Below are positions 36,270 to 42,706 of a stretch of 64,000 nucleotides of DNA, in pieces (positions within the stretch are counted from its first letter, which is position 1; every line of letters starts with the position of its first letter). A program made the position numbers and the translations under genes. The DNA is taken from positions 1,178,001 to 1,242,000 of the forward strand of contig NZ_JAHZTD010000002.1 in the NCBI RefSeq assembly GCF_019599275.1. The letters run 5' to 3'. The notes below the pieces were generated by a model. The model did not search any database. It saw nothing but the letters and a program-made list of their open reading frames with translations, and was not told where the DNA came from. This DNA is from Hymenobacter sp. HSC-4F20 (lineage in GTDB: Bacteria > Bacteroidota > Bacteroidia > Cytophagales > Hymenobacteraceae).

Positions 36270-37340
36270 TTACGCTACGCCTTCCTGTAGGCGCTCGGCG
36301 CTTTCAGCAATGCGCAGTTGCTCCACAAAATCATCAATGCTACCGTCCATCACGGCGCTCAGGTTGTACACCGTGTAGCCGATGCGGTGGTCGGTTACGC
36401 GGCCCTGCGGGTAGTTGTACGTGCGAATTTTGTCCGACCGGTCGCCGCCGCCAATCATGCTCTTACGGGCGGCGCCTTCGGCTTCGTTCTTTTTGGCCAG
36501 CTCAATTTCGTAGAGGCGGGAGCGAAGTACCTGTAAGGCCTTATCAAAGTTCTTGAGCTGCGACTTCTGATCCTGGCACTGCGCTACAATGCCGGTAGGA
36601 ATGTGGGTAAGGCGCACAGCCGAATAGGTAGTGTTTACCGACTGCCCTCCCGGGCCCGACGACATAAACAGGTCCTTGCGCACGTCGTTCATGTCGATTT
36701 CCACGTCCAGTTCTTCAGCCTCCGGCATCACCACTACCGAAGCCACCGAGGTGTGAATGCGGCCCTGGGTTTCGGTAGCTGGCACGCGCTGTACGCGGTG
36801 CACCCCCGACTCGAACTTGAGTTTGCCGTACACGTCTTCGCCCTTCACGGCCAGAATAATTTCTTTGTAGCCGCCCGAAGTGCCTTCGGTAGCGTCCACC
36901 AGCTCCATCTTCCAGCCGTGCTTTTCGGCAAAGCGCATGTACATGCGCTGCAAGTCGCCGGCGAAGATGGCCGCCTCGTCGCCGCCGGCCCCGGCCCGGA
37001 TTTCCATGATAATGTCCTTGGAGTCGTTGGGGTCTTTGGGGATAAGCAGCTCCTTGATGACGGTTTCCAGCCGCTCCTGCTCGGGGTAGAGCGTTTCCAG
37101 CTCGTCCTTCGCCATCTGGCGGAAGTCCTCGTCCTTCTCAGTGGCAATAACCTCCTTCGCGCCGTCGATGTTGGCCAACACATTCTGGTAGGCCTTGTAC
37201 TCGACCACGATTTTGTTCAGGTCCTTGTATTCTTTGTTGAGGGCCTTGAAGCGTTTCATGTCGCTCATGGCTTCGGGTTGGGTAAGCTGTTCGCTCACGT
37301 CCTCAAAGCGCTTTTGGATGGCCTCCAGTTTGTCTAGCAT
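36270..37340 (-). CDS. prfA: Peptide chain release factor 1
   Basis: This 356-residue class I release factor reads UAA and UAG. The peptidyl-hydrolysis motif GGQ is at 231-233 (SSGPGGQSVNTTYSAVRL) and the RF1 stop-recognition motif P-x-T is seen as PAT (187-189) in RVPATETQGRIHTSVASV. The N-terminal coiled domain and the EIRAGAGGDEAAIFAGDL core are intact. The length is normal. A TACCTTTG -7 box lies at 37369-37376. Confidence 0.97.
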   Translation of the reverse strand: MLDKLEAIQKRFEDVSEQLTQPEAMSDMKRFKALNKEYKDLNKIVVEYKAYQNVLANIDGAKEVIATEKDEDFRQMAKDELETLYPEQERLETVIKELLIPKDPNDSKDIIMEIRAGAGGDEAAIFAGDLQRMYMRFAEKHGWKMELVDATEGTSGGYKEIILAVKGEDVYGKLKFESGVHRVQRVPATETQGRIHTSVASVVVMPEAEELDVEIDMNDVRKDLFMSSGPGGQSVNTTYSAVRLTHIPTGIVAQCQDQKSQLKNFDKALQVLRSRLYEIELAKKNEAEGAARKSMIGGGDRSDKIRTYNYPQGRVTDHRIGYTVYNLSAVMDGSIDDFVEQLRIAESAERLQEGVA

Positions 37341-37376: not shown

Positions 37377-37609
37377 CGGAAACGCCGCTGACCTTGAACA
37401 GGGCGAAAGTAGTTGAGTAGAAAGCTGCTGCCCCGGCCTCCGCTACGGCCCCAGGCCGCTGGATTCGGCCTCGGGTAGGAGCAGCCCAGGGCCCGCCCCG
37501 ACCCCGGCCATGACGGGCTAGGGTAGCTTCCGCAAAAATTAAATTATTTATATCTTAAACGCTTATCGTTTTAAAAAATTCCTACTTTGCAGCCATCAAC
37601 CCCGCGCTC

Positions 37610-37699
37610 ATGGCCCTGCTTCGTGCCTTTTATGCTCCTACCCGCGCACTGCCCATCCTGCTGATGGGCACAGGAACAACCGTGATTACAACCCGCTAA
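37610..37699 (+). CDS. Threonine-rich leader peptide of the thr operon
   Basis: This is a 29-codon reading frame, ATG 37610 to TAA 37697-37699, too short for usual gene finders. Its end reads MGTGTTVITTR: five of the last nine codons are Thr and one is Ile. Thr and Ile codons are the regulatory codons of the E. coli thrL leader, which controls the same genes. The AT-rich stretch at 37535-37580 just upstream should hold the promoter (a near -7 box TACTTTG lies at 37583-37589). The leader ends inside the hairpins of the attenuator. The protein itself probably has no function. Confidence 0.8.
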   Translation: MALLRAFYAPTRALPILLMGTGTTVITTR

Positions 37700-37797
37700 A
37701 GCGGGCCGCGGAACTCCATTCTTCTCACTGTATTCGCCGCCCGCCTCGCCGGTACTCCTCTTACTTAGGATGCCGGGCCGACGCGGGCCTTTTCTTG
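37692..37797 (+). promoter_or_regulatory. Transcription attenuator of the thr operon
   Basis: Three competing stems are visible. (1) Protector: CCCGC 37692-37696 with GCGGG 37701-37705, the leader stop codon in its loop. (2) Antiterminator: 37701-37711 with 37734-37744, ten pairs around one mismatch. (3) Terminator: 37739-37752 with 37773-37788, starting with six GC pairs and ending before CTTTTCTTG. Segment 37739-37744 pairs in either (2) or (3), never both. A ribosome stalled at the Thr codons frees 37701-37711 and favours (2); a ribosome at the stop covers it and favours (3). Confidence 0.78.
37739..37797 (+). terminator. Terminator stem of the thr attenuator
   Basis: GCCCGC (37739-37744) pairs with GCGGGC (37783-37788) and continues as TCG/CGA and CC-GG pairs after a mismatch and bulges. 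The loop is about 20 bases. The T-rich tract CTTTTCTTG follows, 25 bases before the thrA start. Confidence 0.72.
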
Positions 37798-37821
37798 TTC
37801 CTACCTATGACGCTACAGGCT

Positions 37822-40266
37822 ATGCAGGTTCTAAAATTCGGAGGCTCGTCGGTGGCGACGGCCGAAACCATTCGCCAAGTGCTGGCGCTGGCGGAAGCCG
37901 CTGCCCGGCGGCACCCAACAGTCGTGGTAGTATCGGCCCTGAGCGGGGTGACGGACGCCCTGATTCGGGCCGGCCACCAAGCGGCCACGAACGACGTGGG
38001 TTACCAGGAGCAGCTGCGGGAGCTGGAGCACCGCCACTTAGCCCTGGTGCGGGAGTTGCTACCCCTCACGGGGCAGAGCAGCGTGCTAAGCTTCGTCAAA
38101 ACACATTGTAACGAACTGGAAAGCCTCTGCAACGGCGTTTTTGCGCTGGGCGAGTTGTCGGCGCGGGCCTTGGACCGGCTGGTGAGCTACGGGGAGCTGC
38201 TTTCCTCCCGGATAGTAGCGGCGGGGCTGGCAGCGCGGGGCACGGCCCACCAGTGGCTCGATAGCCGCCAGTTGATCCGCACGGACGCCCGCTACGGCCA
38301 CGCGGCCGTCGACTTTGCTACCACCAATGCCCAGATTCAGGCCGCCGTGAACGGGGCCGAGGTAGCACTCTACGTAGCCCCCGGCTTTGTGGCCGCCGCC
38401 CCGGACGGCAGCACCACCACCCTGGGCCGCGGCGGCTCCGATTATACGGCGGCCATTTTCGCCGGAGCCCTGGGCGCCAGCCAGCTGGAAATCTGGACCG
38501 ATGTAAGCGGCATGATGACGGCCGACCCGCGGCTGGTGCGGGCCGCCCGGCCTATTCCGCGCATCTCCTACCAGGAGGCCATGGAACTCTCGCACTTCGG
38601 GGCCAAGGTGCTATACCCGCCTACCATCCAGCCGGTTATGCGCCGGGGCATTCCGCTCTGGATCAAGAACACGTTTGCGCCCCAGGACGAGGGCACGCTG
38701 GTGGAGGTGGCCCCGCCGGCCCATCAGGCCATCGTGCGGGGCATTTCCAGCATCGGGCCGGTGGCGTTGCTACGGCTGGAAGGCAGCGGCATGGTGGGCA
38801 TTCCGGGGTTTTCGCGCCGCTTGTTTGCCGCCCTGGCCCAGGAGCAAATCAACGTAATTCTCATTACCCAAAGCTCCTCGGAGCACTCCATTTCGGTGGC
38901 CGTGAGTACGGCCGAGGCCACGCGCGCCCAGCAGGCGGCTAATGCCGAGTTTGCTGCTGAAATCGGGGCTGGCCGCCTCGATCCGCTGTACCGGGAGGAC
39001 GAGCTGGCTATTGTGGCGCTGGTGGGGGAGCAGATGAAAAACCACCCCGGCATCAGTGGCCGCCTGTTCGGGGCGCTGGGGCAGAATGGGGTCAACATCC
39101 GGGCCATTGCCCAGGGCTCCTCGGAGAAGAACATTTCCACCGTTATCCGGCAGCAGGATGTGCGCAAGGCCATCAACGTGCTGCACGAAACGTTCTTCGA
39201 GGCCACTACCCGGCAGGTAAACGTGGTAGTTACCGGCGTGGGCAATGTAGGTGGCAAGCTGCTGGAGCAACTGGCCCGGCAGCAGCGCTGGCTGCGCGAG
39301 AAGCTGCGCCTGAACCTGCGGGTAGTGGGCCTGGCCAACAGCCGGCAGTTTGTGCTCGCCGAAGAGGGTATTGACTTGACCAATTGGCAACCGGCGCTGG
39401 CCGCCGGCGCCCCCCTGAGCCTGCCGGCCCTCACCGAGCAGCTGCTGGCCCTGAATCTGCGCAACACCGTGTTCGTGGATGTGACGGCCAGCGCCGAGGT
39501 AGCGCAGGTATACGCCGGACTGCTGGCCCGTAGCGTGGCGGTAGTAGCCTGCAACAAGGTAGCGGCATCCTCGGAGTACGAGAACTATGCCCACCTCAAG
39601 GCCTTGGCCCAGGAGTTCAACACGCAGTTTCTCTTTGAAACCAACGTAGGCGCAGGCCTGCCCGTCATCGGGACGCTAGGCGACCTGCTGCGCAGCGGCG
39701 ACGAGGTGCAACGCCTAGAAGCCGTGCTTTCGGGCACCCTGAACTTTGTGTTCAACCACTACGACGGGTCGCGGCCCTTCGCCGAGGTGGTGCGCCAGGC
39801 CCAGGCCGAAGGCTACACCGAGCCCGACCCCCGCCTTGATCTGACCGGGGTAGACGTGGCCCGCAAAATCCTGATTCTGGCCCGCGAGGCCGGCCACGCC
39901 CTGGAAATGAGCGACGTCGAGAATGCCTCCTTCCTGCCCGTTTCCTGCCTGGAGGGCGACGTGCCGGCTTTCTACGAGCAGTTGGCGGCGCACGAGCCCC
40001 ACTTCCGGGCTCTGTATGAGGCCGCGGCGGCCAACGGAGAGAAGCTGCGGTTTGTGGCCAGTTTTGCGGCGGGACAGGCCCGGGTGGGCCTCCAGGCCCT
40101 ACCTCCCCACCACGATTTGTATTCCCTGCAGGGCAAGGACAACGCGGTGCTGTTCTACACCAACCGCTACACTCAGCAGCCCCTCGTCATTAAAGGGGCC
40201 GGCGCCGGGGCCGAAGTAACAGCCTCGGGCGTATTTGCCGATATTCTGCGGGCGGTGCAGTCGTAG
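37822..40266 (+). CDS. thrA: Bifunctional aspartokinase/homoserine dehydrogenase
   Basis: The protein has 814 residues from ATG 37822 (MQVLKFGGSSVATAETIRQV), matching the E. coli ThrA start; ATG 37807 is an alternative. Aspartokinase comes first (KFGGSS, VVSALSGVTDAL, TTTLGRGGSDYTA), then two ACT domains (QEQINVILITQSSSEHSISVAV; LGQNGVNIRAIAQGSSEKNIS), then homoserine dehydrogenase (VVVTGVGNVGGKLLEQL, VACNKVAAS, ETNVGAGLPVI, GTLNFVFNHYDG, GYTEPDPRLDLTGVDVARK). It catalyses the first and third steps of the threonine branch and should be feedback-inhibited through the ACT domains. It is the first gene of thrABC, behind the attenuator. Confidence 0.96.
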   Translation: MQVLKFGGSSVATAETIRQVLALAEAAARRHPTVVVVSALSGVTDALIRAGHQAATNDVGYQEQLRELEHRHLALVRELLPLTGQSSVLSFVKTHCNELESLCNGVFALGELSARALDRLVSYGELLSSRIVAAGLAARGTAHQWLDSRQLIRTDARYGHAAVDFATTNAQIQAAVNGAEVALYVAPGFVAAAPDGSTTTLGRGGSDYTAAIFAGALGASQLEIWTDVSGMMTADPRLVRAARPIPRISYQEAMELSHFGAKVLYPPTIQPVMRRGIPLWIKNTFAPQDEGTLVEVAPPAHQAIVRGISSIGPVALLRLEGSGMVGIPGFSRRLFAALAQEQINVILITQSSSEHSISVAVSTAEATRAQQAANAEFAAEIGAGRLDPLYREDELAIVALVGEQMKNHPGISGRLFGALGQNGVNIRAIAQGSSEKNISTVIRQQDVRKAINVLHETFFEATTRQVNVVVTGVGNVGGKLLEQLARQQRWLREKLRLNLRVVGLANSRQFVLAEEGIDLTNWQPALAAGAPLSLPALTEQLLALNLRNTVFVDVTASAEVAQVYAGLLARSVAVVACNKVAASSEYENYAHLKALAQEFNTQFLFETNVGAGLPVIGTLGDLLRSGDEVQRLEAVLSGTLNFVFNHYDGSRPFAEVVRQAQAEGYTEPDPRLDLTGVDVARKILILAREAGHALEMSDVENASFLPVSCLEGDVPAFYEQLAAHEPHFRALYEAAAANGEKLRFVASFAAGQARVGLQALPPHHDLYSLQGKDNAVLFYTNRYTQQPLVIKGAGAGAEVTASGVFADILRAVQS

Positions 40267-40319: not shown

Positions 40320-41282
40320 ATGACTTTTTCCTCTGCTCCCCTCACCGTGCTGGCTCCCGCCACCGTCGCCAACGTGGTGTGTGGGTTTGATGTGCTGGGC
40401 TTTGCGCTAGCCGAGCCCAACGACACCATGCAGCTGCGCCTGACTGACCAGCCCGGCGTGGCCATCATTCACGAAGACGAATTTGGCCTGCCAACGGAGC
40501 CCTCGCGCAATGTGGCAGGCGCAGCTCTGTTGGCCATGCTTCGGGGCGTGCCCGAGGAGGTGGGCGTAGAAGTGCGGATTCGCAAAACCATTCGGCCGGG
40601 CAGCGGCATTGGCAGCAGCGCGGCCAGCGCGGCGGGGGCCGTAGTGGGGTTGAACCAGCTGCTCGGCCAGCGCTTCACACTGCCGGAGCTGGTACACTAC
40701 GCCATGTACGGAGAGGAAGTAGCCTCCGGGGTACGCCACGCCGACAACATTGCGCCCGCCATTTATGGCGGCGTAACTCTGATTCGGGCTACTGTGCCGG
40801 CGCCCGACATTGTGCCCCTGGACGCACCGCCCCTGTTCGTGACGGTAGTGCACCCCCAAATTGAGGTAAAGACCTCGGACGCCCGCCGGATTCTCAAGCA
40901 GGAAGTGCCCCTGCGCGACGCCATCCGGCAGTGGGGCAACGTGGGGGGACTGGTAGCGGGCCTACTTCAGCACGACTACAGCCTGATTAGCCGCTCCCTG
41001 GAAGACGTAATTGTGGAACCTGTGCGCAGCATCCTGATTCCGGGTTTTCAAGACGTGAAGGACGGCAGCCGGATAGCCGGTGCCCTGGGCGGCGGCATTT
41101 CCGGCTCGGGCCCGTCGCTGTTCATGCTCAGCCAGGACGAGGCTACTGCCCGAGCCGTGGAAAACGTCATGCACGCTACCTACCAGCGCCTGGGTCTGGC
41201 CTACCACACCTACGTCACGACGATTAACCCGGTGGGCTGCCAGATACTGGTGGAAAGCGCCAGTACGGCCCCCGTACTCTAA
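40320..41282 (+). CDS. thrB: Homoserine kinase
   Basis: The protein has 320 residues from ATG 40320 (MTFSSAPLTVLAPATVANVV); an upstream in-frame ATG lacks a family-like N-terminus. It is a GHMP kinase: the ATP-binding loop is RPGSGIGSSAASAAGAVVGLN, and the C-terminal GGGISGSGPSLFMLS is the third GHMP motif. It phosphorylates homoserine. It begins 53 bases after thrA and is followed by thrC, the standard operon order. Confidence 0.96.
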   Translation: MTFSSAPLTVLAPATVANVVCGFDVLGFALAEPNDTMQLRLTDQPGVAIIHEDEFGLPTEPSRNVAGAALLAMLRGVPEEVGVEVRIRKTIRPGSGIGSSAASAAGAVVGLNQLLGQRFTLPELVHYAMYGEEVASGVRHADNIAPAIYGGVTLIRATVPAPDIVPLDAPPLFVTVVHPQIEVKTSDARRILKQEVPLRDAIRQWGNVGGLVAGLLQHDYSLISRSLEDVIVEPVRSILIPGFQDVKDGSRIAGALGGGISGSGPSLFMLSQDEATARAVENVMHATYQRLGLAYHTYVTTINPVGCQILVESASTAPVL

Positions 41283-41401: not shown

Positions 41402-42706
41402 ATGCGCTACTACAGCCTTAACCGCCGCGCCGAACCCGCCGATTTTCGCGCCGCTACTGTGGCGGGCCAGGCCCCGGATGGGGGCCTGTACTTCCCCGAA
41501 ACCATTCCGCGCTTTCCGACTGGTTTCGTAGAGCAGCTACCCCACCTGACCGCCGCCGAAGTAGCGTACGCTGTGCTGCAACCCTACGTGGGCAACGCTA
41601 TTCCGGCACCGGAGCTGCGCGCTATCTGCGCCGAGGCCTTGGACTTTCCACTCCCGGTGGTGCCGGTTACCGAGCGCATCAGTGCCCTGGAGTTGTTTCA
41701 CGGGCCCACGCTGGCGTTCAAGGACGTAGGGGCCCGCTTCATGAGCCGCTGCCTCGGCTACTTTTCCCGCCACGAAACCCGGTCCGTGACGGTGCTGGTA
41801 GCTACCTCCGGCGACACGGGCGGGGCCGTGGCCAGCGGCTTTTTAGGGGTAGAGGGAGTGGAAGTGGTTATTCTCTACCCCGCCGGCCGGGTGAGCCCGG
41901 TGCAGGAGCAGCAGCTCACGGCCCTGGGCCAGAACGTAACCGCTCTGGAAGTGCAGGGCAACTTCGACGACTGCCAGCGGCTGGTGAAGCAGGCCTTCCG
42001 GGATGCTGACTTACTGGCCCGGCGGCGCCTGACGTCGGCCAACTCTATCAATGTCGCCCGCTGGTTGCCTCAGCAGGTGTATTACTGCACCGGCGTGGCC
42101 CAGGCGCTGGCTGCCACGGGCCAGGCGCCGGTGGTAGCCGTGCCCAGCGGTAATTTCGGCAACCTCTGCGCGGGGCTGCTGGCCTACGTATCAGGGCTGC
42201 CGGTGCGGCATTTTGTGGCGGCCTGCAACGCCAACGCGGCCGTACCCGCCTACCTTACCACGGGGCAGTACGCGGCGCGCCCGGCCGTAGCCACGCTTTC
42301 CAACGCCATGGACGTGGGCGACCCGAGCAACTTTGGCCGTATCCTGGAGCTGTTTCGCCACGAGCACCCCGCTATCCGGGCCCTGCTCACGGGGTATTCC
42401 GTTTCGGATGAGGAAACCAGCGCCACCATTCAGCGGGTATACCAACACGCCGGATACCTGCTGGACCCCCACGGCGCAGTGGCCTTTTTCGCCCTGGAGG
42501 CCTACCTACGGCAGCACCCGGAGCAGCCCGGTATTTTCTTGGAAACGGCGCACCCAGTGAAATTCCCGGCGGCCGTAGAGCCGGCCACTGGCCAGCCCGT
42601 GCCCGTGCCGACGACGCTGCGGGAGCTGCTGGGCCAGCCCAAGCGTAGCATCTTGCTGGCACCCGAGTACGAGGCGTTGCGTAGCTATCTGCTGGCCGCA
42701 GGGTAG
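41402..42706 (+). CDS. thrC: Threonine synthase
   Basis: The protein has 434 residues from ATG 41402 (MRYYSLNRRAEPADFRAATV). The PLP lysine is Lys107 in HGPTLAFKDVGARFMSRCL. Other family motifs are LVATSGDTGGAVASGF, YPAGRVSPVQEQQLTALGQNV, RRLTSANSINVARWLPQQ and VPSGNFGNLCAG. It converts O-phosphohomoserine to threonine. It is the last gene of thrABC, 119 bases after thrB; that gap holds no clear terminator. Confidence 0.96.
   Translation: MRYYSLNRRAEPADFRAATVAGQAPDGGLYFPETIPRFPTGFVEQLPHLTAAEVAYAVLQPYVGNAIPAPELRAICAEALDFPLPVVPVTERISALELFHGPTLAFKDVGARFMSRCLGYFSRHETRSVTVLVATSGDTGGAVASGFLGVEGVEVVILYPAGRVSPVQEQQLTALGQNVTALEVQGNFDDCQRLVKQAFRDADLLARRRLTSANSINVARWLPQQVYYCTGVAQALAATGQAPVVAVPSGNFGNLCAGLLAYVSGLPVRHFVAACNANAAVPAYLTTGQYAARPAVATLSNAMDVGDPSNFGRILELFRHEHPAIRALLTGYSVSDEETSATIQRVYQHAGYLLDPHGAVAFFALEAYLRQHPEQPGIFLETAHPVKFPAAVEPATGQPVPVPTTLRELLGQPKRSILLAPEYEALRSYLLAAG

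Follow-up and report, generated by a model that had tools for sequence, protein, structure and literature searches.

A probable threonine attenuator upstream of thrABC in Hymenobacter and a possible second leader layout in Bacteroidota

How the threonine operon of Hymenobacter sp. HSC-4F20 is adjusted to the supply of its end product is the question raised by the DNA ahead of its thrA gene. The window analyzed here is a stretch of 64,000 nt (GCF_019599275.1, contig NZ_JAHZTD010000002.1, positions 1,178,001–1,242,000 of the forward strand), and all positions given below are counted from its first letter. In E. coli, the leader peptide thrL, with its Thr and Ile codons, controls the thr operon by attenuation, and a preliminary description of the window had claimed a complete attenuator of the same design. 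We consider, with high confidence, that the thr leader is a ribosome-mediated transcription attenuator sensing charged tRNA-Thr, a reading that joins an observed anatomy to an inferred action. The locus would thus provide a complete thr attenuator, open to testing, in a phylum whose RNA regulation has been little studied. As Bacteroidota use Shine-Dalgarno pairing little, such an element may also allow ribosome–polymerase coupling to be examined in this phylum.

The anatomy of the locus is collected in Table 1. The three genes of the operon were identified by NCBIfam models, all with scores over the cut-off, and together with the 29-codon Thr-rich open reading frame (ORF), the protector stem, and the T-rich tract they appear in the sequence as the preliminary description had it. 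The element lies between a promoter-like block, here a putative promoter, and thrA, the first gene of the cognate operon; the start of thrA that is kept in relatives is the tabulated one (ATGCAG), and a further in-frame ATG is present at 37807. We take the TACTTTG block to be the Bacteroidota -7 element (TAnnTTTG), and no clear -33 box was seen in the window. Either this block, TACTTTA, or TAGCTT[AT] is found 190 to 40 nt upstream of the stop codon in all 47 Hymenobacter leaders described below, in 46 of which the 5'-most in-frame ATG follows 18–24 nt past the block (20 nt in the window). Among 2506 stop-terminated frames of the window, the leader ORF is one of four with at least five Thr in the final 10 codons, and one of two with at least six Thr or Ile codons there. 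The neighboring divergent gene is that of release factor 1, which may be noted beside a leader whose working hinges on events at a stop codon; as all three stop codons, TAA, TAG, and TGA, occur at the ends of leaders in relatives, a preference for one release factor is not apparent.

Table 1. Positions of the thr leader elements and neighboring genes in the window
Feature	Position	Strand	Basis or remark
prfA, peptide chain release factor 1	36270-37340	divergent from thr leader	
Promoter -7-like block TACTTTG	37583..37589	+	register kept when 33 distinct upstream sequences from Hymenobacter are aligned
Leader peptide ORF, 29 codons, MALLRAFYAPTRALPILLMGTGTTVITTR, C-terminus GTGTTVITTR before the stop	37610..37699	+	ORF call, Hymenobacter alignment, codon-position variation
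Regulatory codons Thr, Thr, Thr, Ile, Thr, Thr (ACA ACA ACC ATT ACA ACC)	37670..37693	+	
Segment 1 CCCGC, 5' arm of the protector hairpin at the stop codon	37692..37696	+	96.3% of cells pair with segment 2, 32 sequences
Leader stop codon TAA	37697-37699	+	
Segment 2 GCGGGCCGCGG, partner of 1 or of 3	37701..37711	+	computed folds, covariation
Segment 3 TCGCCGCCCGC, antiterminator 3' arm	37734..37744	+	37739-37744 doubles as terminator 5' arm
3:4 intrinsic terminator hairpin	37739..37788	+	predicted, -28.2 kcal/mol in window scan
Segment 4 GCGGGC	37783-37788	+	
Terminator U-rich tract CTTTTCTTG	37789..37797	+	read from sequence
thrA, bifunctional aspartate kinase/homoserine dehydrogenase I	37822..40266	+	NF006959, 1019.9 bits, cut-off 726
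thrB, homoserine kinase	40320..41282	+	NF002288, 362.2 bits, cut-off 194
thrC, threonine synthase	41402..42706	+	TIGR00260, 280.3 bits, cut-off 167.1

Folded alone, the three stems reach -8.9 (1:2), -19.4 (2:3), and -29.3 kcal/mol (3:4), and the computed folds agree with the antiterminator, the terminator, and the shared segment that had been proposed. The antiterminator 2:3 and the terminator 3:4 are mutually exclusive, and the protector hairpin 1:2 lies at the end of the leader. When segment 1 is covered (RNA from 37701 on), the optimum fold contains 2:3; when the leader RNA is fully free, or begins at 37712 as with a ribosome at the stop codon, the optimum contains 3:4. With the first two bases of segment 2 also covered (first free base 37703), the optimum is already 3:4 again, and the exact stalling codon therefore matters. 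The 201-nt leader folds at -71.2 kcal/mol, compared with -59.2 +/- 3.8 in dinucleotide shuffles (z -3.1; 2 of 200 shuffles as good). The U tract of the window is short, which counts against an attenuator; five or more consecutive T follow the terminator in most of the 32 aligned relatives.

From this arrangement we infer the transcription start, the stalling, the termination, and the direction of the response. RNA polymerase would start approximately 10–14 nt ahead of the leader ATG, and the leader would be translated while it emerges. If threonyl-tRNA is ample, the ribosome would reach the stop codon and cover segments 1 and 2, upon which the 3:4 terminator would fold and the transcript would stop after approximately 195 nt; to judge from the sequence, plentiful threonine very probably switches the thr genes off through the leader. 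If threonyl-tRNA is scarce, the ribosome would stall on the Thr codons, among which the rare ACA is frequent, so as to cover segment 1 and leave segment 2 free, and the resulting 2:3 pairing would block the terminator and permit transcription of thrABC. If there is no translation, 1:2 would form and the terminator would be protected. We know of no other reading that accounts at once for the pattern of coding variation, the choice of Thr codons, and the alternation of stems, and the occurrence of His-, Trp-, and Phe/Tyr-rich ORFs upstream of hisG, trpE, and pheA in the same genome also counts in favor of an attenuator.

The proposal that charged tRNA-Thr acts through ribosome stalling is supported by comparative tests on relatives, in which both a conserved short ORF with Thr codons and covarying stems, named at the outset as points to check, were found. 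A search of 120 Hymenobacter genomes with the N-terminal part of ThrA gave 102 close ThrA matches and 18 genomes with only a weaker aspartate-kinase match; 100 of the 102 loci were read, two that start at a contig end being left out, and a leader was called where the last 12 residues of an ORF scored at least 3.5 (Thr 1, Ile 0.8). A short leader ORF, predicted to be translated and rich in codons for the operon's amino acid, stands upstream of thrA in 47 of these 100 loci, namely in 30/30 of one set (L002–L031) and 17/70 of another (L142–L211). These 47 loci coincide exactly with the 47 best-scoring ThrA matches (E <=6.2e-79), the 53 leaderless ones having E values of 2.2e-78 and weaker, so that leader presence tracks the ThrA group. 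The 53 loci without a Thr leader (L159–L211) form a second group, indicating loss or replacement inside one genus, in which the leader is evidently dispensable. In two loci (L028 and G061:C1:1419756), the thrA frame spans only 352 and 313 codons, probably owing to a sequencing frameshift. Across 80 named contigs, 52 carry a leader, comprising 10 of 27 from Hymenobacter and 42 of 53 from Chitinophagaceae genera and metagenome-assembled Bacteroidetes; a leader called by the script at L109 was discarded as spurious.

The three stems are kept among 32 distinct Hymenobacter sequences, with 96.3% (1:2), 96.1% (2:3), and 96.8% (3:4) of cells paired, compared with at most 51.1%, 59.3%, and 52.4%, respectively, in slid registers. 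Pairs changed on both sides number one, three, and one. The covariation score and the count of both-side-changed cells exceed all 500 shuffles for each stem, a result whose significance is overstated, as is that of the codon tests, because the sequences share ancestry. The count of both-side-changed pairs is equalled in 339 (1:2), 4 (2:3), and 152 (3:4) of 500 shuffles, and that of further pair types is not above the shuffles, being reached in 465, 123, and 500 of 500, respectively. In one relative (L041) the columns look broken, but the stems are re-registered, 2:3 as GGCUGCUC:GAGCAGCC and 3:4 as AGCAGC:GCUGCU, and remain mutually exclusive. The hairpin ahead of the T run lies between -21.9 and -39.9 kcal/mol in every one of the 47 leaders; the corresponding medians are -8.3 for the 53 regions upstream of leaderless thrA and 0.0 for 20 leaders after shuffling.

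The codons of the leader vary as those of a coding sequence do. When 46 distinct leaders from Hymenobacter are compared, the variation summed from codon -9 to codon -4 is 5.02, 7.37, and 9.73 bits at codon positions 1, 2, and 3, and Thr occupies codon -2 in 46/46 and codon -3 in 42/46. As the leaders were picked by their Thr/Ile content, their Thr richness is by itself partly circular. The choice among Thr codons is biased: with the last three codons left out because the hairpin constrains them, 53 of the 133 Thr codons counted in 30 Hymenobacter leaders are ACA, versus 32 of 1109 in thrA stretches, an enrichment for which a P value is indicative only, the sequences being related. In the same leaders, A is the third base in 26 of 244 other fourfold codons. 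Outside Hymenobacter, the ACA excess is small (78/206 in 40 leaders versus 392/1554).

These data also bear on four other readings. That the leader senses isoleucine besides threonine, as in E. coli thrL, or responds chiefly to a general slowing of translation, is unlikely without being far-fetched: over codons -20 to -4 of the 46 leaders, Ile accounts for 70 of 782 codons compared with 87 of 1924 in four window genes, and it occupies codon -4 in 14 of 46; this enrichment is nevertheless about twofold, against about fivefold for Thr (203/782 versus 100/1924), and only one Ile codon (ATT) is present in the regulatory tail of the window's leader. Isoleucine may act as a second signal, but the case for it is weak. 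A plain spacer terminator beside a chance ORF, with no regulation, would draw on the readiness of GC-rich intergenic DNA to form hairpins, as 14 of the 53 leaderless regions and 2 of the 20 shuffled leaders reach -15 kcal/mol ahead of a T run; the retention of the ORF and its Thr tail in 47 loci, the covarying alternative stems, and the codon-position pattern make this explanation very improbable. Nearly the same must be said of a functional small protein, with which a conserved ORF of coding-type variation would agree: what is kept is the Thr/Ile-rich C-terminal tail, while codons -20 to -11 are highly variable, as in leader peptides, and we regard such a protein as highly unlikely.

Control by a T-box or a small-molecule riboswitch would suit the location of the element and the presence of a terminator. 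At the gathering score, Rfam searches of the window returned no match, whether to a family for the thr element, to a T-box, or to Thr_leader, which we take to be RF00506. At E <=10, the region 37500–37900 likewise gave no thr family or T-box, its two matches, a viral frameshift element and RsmY (other strand), being weak and far under the gathering score. A survey counts T-boxes in 0/7 Bacteroidetes/Chlorobi genomes (PMC2494555), and control of the thr operon by either kind of element appears extremely improbable.

Attenuation by ribosome stalling, the reading preferred here, places the Hymenobacter element close to E. coli thrL in its Thr/Ile leader, its stop-codon hairpin, its mutually exclusive antiterminator and terminator, and its position upstream of thrABC. 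It differs from thrL in having fewer Ile codons, and further in its GC-rich stems, its ACA bias, and its lack of a match to the Rfam thr family even at E <=10. Comparative prediction of amino-acid attenuators, reportedly including those of threonine operons and covering Bacteroidetes/Chlorobi, is said to have been carried out by Vitreschak et al. in 2004 (FEMS Microbiol Lett). Rfam searches of 18, 19, and 13 further loci matched no family to the thr element, the only matches being a tRNA (L140) and Bacteroid-trp (L258). The latter model matched one of the six trp loci scanned (L258, 80.1 bits), which indicates that such a search is able to detect leaders in this phylum. The Bacteroid-trp leader (RF01692) has been described as a cis-regulatory element that Bacteroidota use for an amino-acid operon (PMC2864571). 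It belongs to another operon and another amino acid, and its model matched neither the thr element nor the trp loci of Hymenobacter. For Flavobacterium psychrophilum, leader-peptide attenuation of amino-acid operons has been proposed from structured 5' regions, upstream of pheA and hisG among others and without Rfam matches; the proposed mechanism and the phylum are those of the window element and the species is another, and the words "threonine" and "thrA" are absent from the main text of that report (PMC9723704). In Bacteroides thetaiotaomicron, short ORFs in long 5' untranslated regions have been likened to attenuation leader peptides in an article whose excerpted passages contain no thr case and whose main text lacks the word "threonine" (PMC7366714). 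Among the matches listed in a search of the open literature, which most subscription papers lie outside, no thr leader of Hymenobacter or other Bacteroidota was found, and this absence is accordingly no proof of novelty. The principle of attenuation is textbook knowledge and has already been proposed in Bacteroidota; the Hymenobacter thr element is a further case.

Thr leaders are also present elsewhere in the phylum. A covariance model (R1) built from 41 thr leaders from outside Hymenobacter matched 59 of 395 genomes at E <=1, and all 30 places fetched lie shortly upstream of thrA; in one of these matches (L139), the stop codon of the hairpin has been lost. In a family of the same order, no R1 match was obtained among the genomes listed, yet a Thr/Ile leader was found in 24 of the 30 thrA loci fetched (out of 52 with a match), one or two of the 24 looking spurious; these leaders usually end in ITG or TTG, and their stop hairpin is inverted (ACGGG..CCCGT), a change that also favors an attenuator. 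Strong terminators are rare outside Hymenobacter, with 3/40, 0/10, and 0/9 leaders of three groups reaching -8 kcal/mol, a cut that underrates AU-rich terminators and is reached by 31 of 53 GC-rich leaderless Hymenobacter controls, in a scan that permitted no unpaired base ahead of the T run and put 3 of the 47 Hymenobacter leaders above -8. The claim of a complete, E. coli-like attenuator thus does not extend to Bacteroidota in general, as leaders outside Hymenobacter mostly show no strong terminator.

What the leaders of other lineages keep is the stop-codon hairpin, with the motif CATAT shortly beyond it. CATAT starts 12–18 nt past the stop in 35/42 thr leaders outside Hymenobacter, 13/21 thr leaders of the same-order family, 23/30 Hymenobacter his leaders, and 6/27 his leaders of the same-order family, or 77/120 in all, versus 298 of 42632 stop triplets of any frame in the same loci; R1 matches were excluded here, CATAT being part of that model. 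In 45 distinct thr leaders from Hymenobacter, the motif is absent from the 45 nt past the stop. On these grounds it is conceivable, and we put it forward tentatively and with more doubt than conviction, that Bacteroidota have a second kind of attenuator, lacking a classical terminator and serving thr and his operons, in which a hairpin causes RNA polymerase to pause at or release from CATAT, and that the window leader is a Hymenobacter conversion of this older layout. The regulatory codons in such leaders would reach the stop codon inside a short hairpin, which would form only when its 5' arm is free of a stalled ribosome, and the polymerase would then pause or release at CATAT shortly past the hairpin; this mode might operate in thr operons of several families and in his operons of Hymenobacter and another family of its order. 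We read the two layouts as two exits for one sensing principle, the window thr leader using the classical exit, and our best guess is that CATAT is a hairpin-dependent RNA polymerase pause or release site. If so, it would be a natural system in which to study how a hairpin makes the polymerase of Bacteroidota pause.

The spacing of the motif is informative in this respect. The distance from hairpin to CATAT, which depends on a simple hairpin finder, is 7–9 nt in 60 of 77 measured leaders (range 5–12), and a spacing of 7–9 nt would fit the geometry of E. coli pause and terminator hairpins. In the 23 Hymenobacter his leaders, this distance is steady at 7–9 while that from the stop varies (13, 14, or 17), which favors placement of CATAT relative to the hairpin. 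The thr leaders argue against a strict hairpin spacing because they spread over 5–12 nt and keep a steady distance from the stop: 35 from outside Hymenobacter have hairpin distances of 5–10 and a stop distance of 14 in 28 cases, and 13 of the sister family have hairpin distances of 8–12 and stop distances of 14–17. RNAalifold found only three pairs in the 41 non-Hymenobacter thr leaders, and in several single sequences GGGUUGUA folds with UAUYACC as a candidate antiterminator. In the non-Hymenobacter stop hairpin, 88.2% of cells are paired (reached by 67/500 shuffles) and the covariation score is reached in 6/500; pairs changed on both sides are not above the shuffles (286/500), and the covariation signal is weak. 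A pattern search for CATAT..GGGC in six genomes gave 64 places versus 33 for the reversed pattern, and as only one of the 30 places fetched has the layout (L290, a thr leader), the pattern alone reveals no further operons. In AT-rich genomes of one or two families (L128–L138), the Thr leaders mostly end in TTP and have a hairpin ACCCC-UUA-GGGGU followed by CATAT; in several of them, an AU-rich stretch precedes TTTTTT, possibly an intermediate between the two layouts.

For these counts, his loci were taken from Hymenobacter, where 30 were fetched out of 61 genomes, and from the other family, where 39 genomes carry HisG and 29 new loci were fetched. Among them, leaders with CATAT mostly carry the ending HHSS or HHSSF; their stop codon is spanned by a hairpin (for instance, ATTCCTCT-ttct-AGAGGAAT), and in most of them no T run lies close by. 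In the window's own genome (L254), a His-rich leader ending in QQHHHHGHHSSF precedes hisG, its stop codon lies inside that same hairpin, and CATATTGACCCCGTTGGGC follows 14 nt past the stop with no T run seen nearby, which is the layout of the other Bacteroidota thr leaders; most of the other Hymenobacter his loci (L303–L332) agree with it. In another his layout, HHHHH stands at a greater distance from the stop and the terminator has a U tract; Trp leaders, too, have terminators. Upstream of trpE in the window genome (L263), a Trp leader, MTFSMTQQAWWWPYGNSGRDSMCVR, is followed by a GC-rich terminator and is unmatched by the Bacteroid-trp model. This genome seems to hold attenuators of two layouts, those of thr, trp, and phe with terminators and that of his without. 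At ilvD, 2 of 23 loci have a candidate leader: in L393 and L394, which belong to two genomes from a different family of the order, an Ile/Leu/Val-rich ORF precedes a terminator made of a hairpin with a T run. Neither has the CATAT layout, and nothing convincing was seen in the remaining 21. Convincing leaders were found at 4 of 16 pheA loci, all in Hymenobacter and without the CATAT layout: near position 1250320 of the contig, approximately 8 kb past the window, a Phe/Tyr-rich leader ending in GRFFFSYYFYYATT and a terminator stand upstream of pheA (L375), and a similar phe leader is present in three further Hymenobacter genomes examined.
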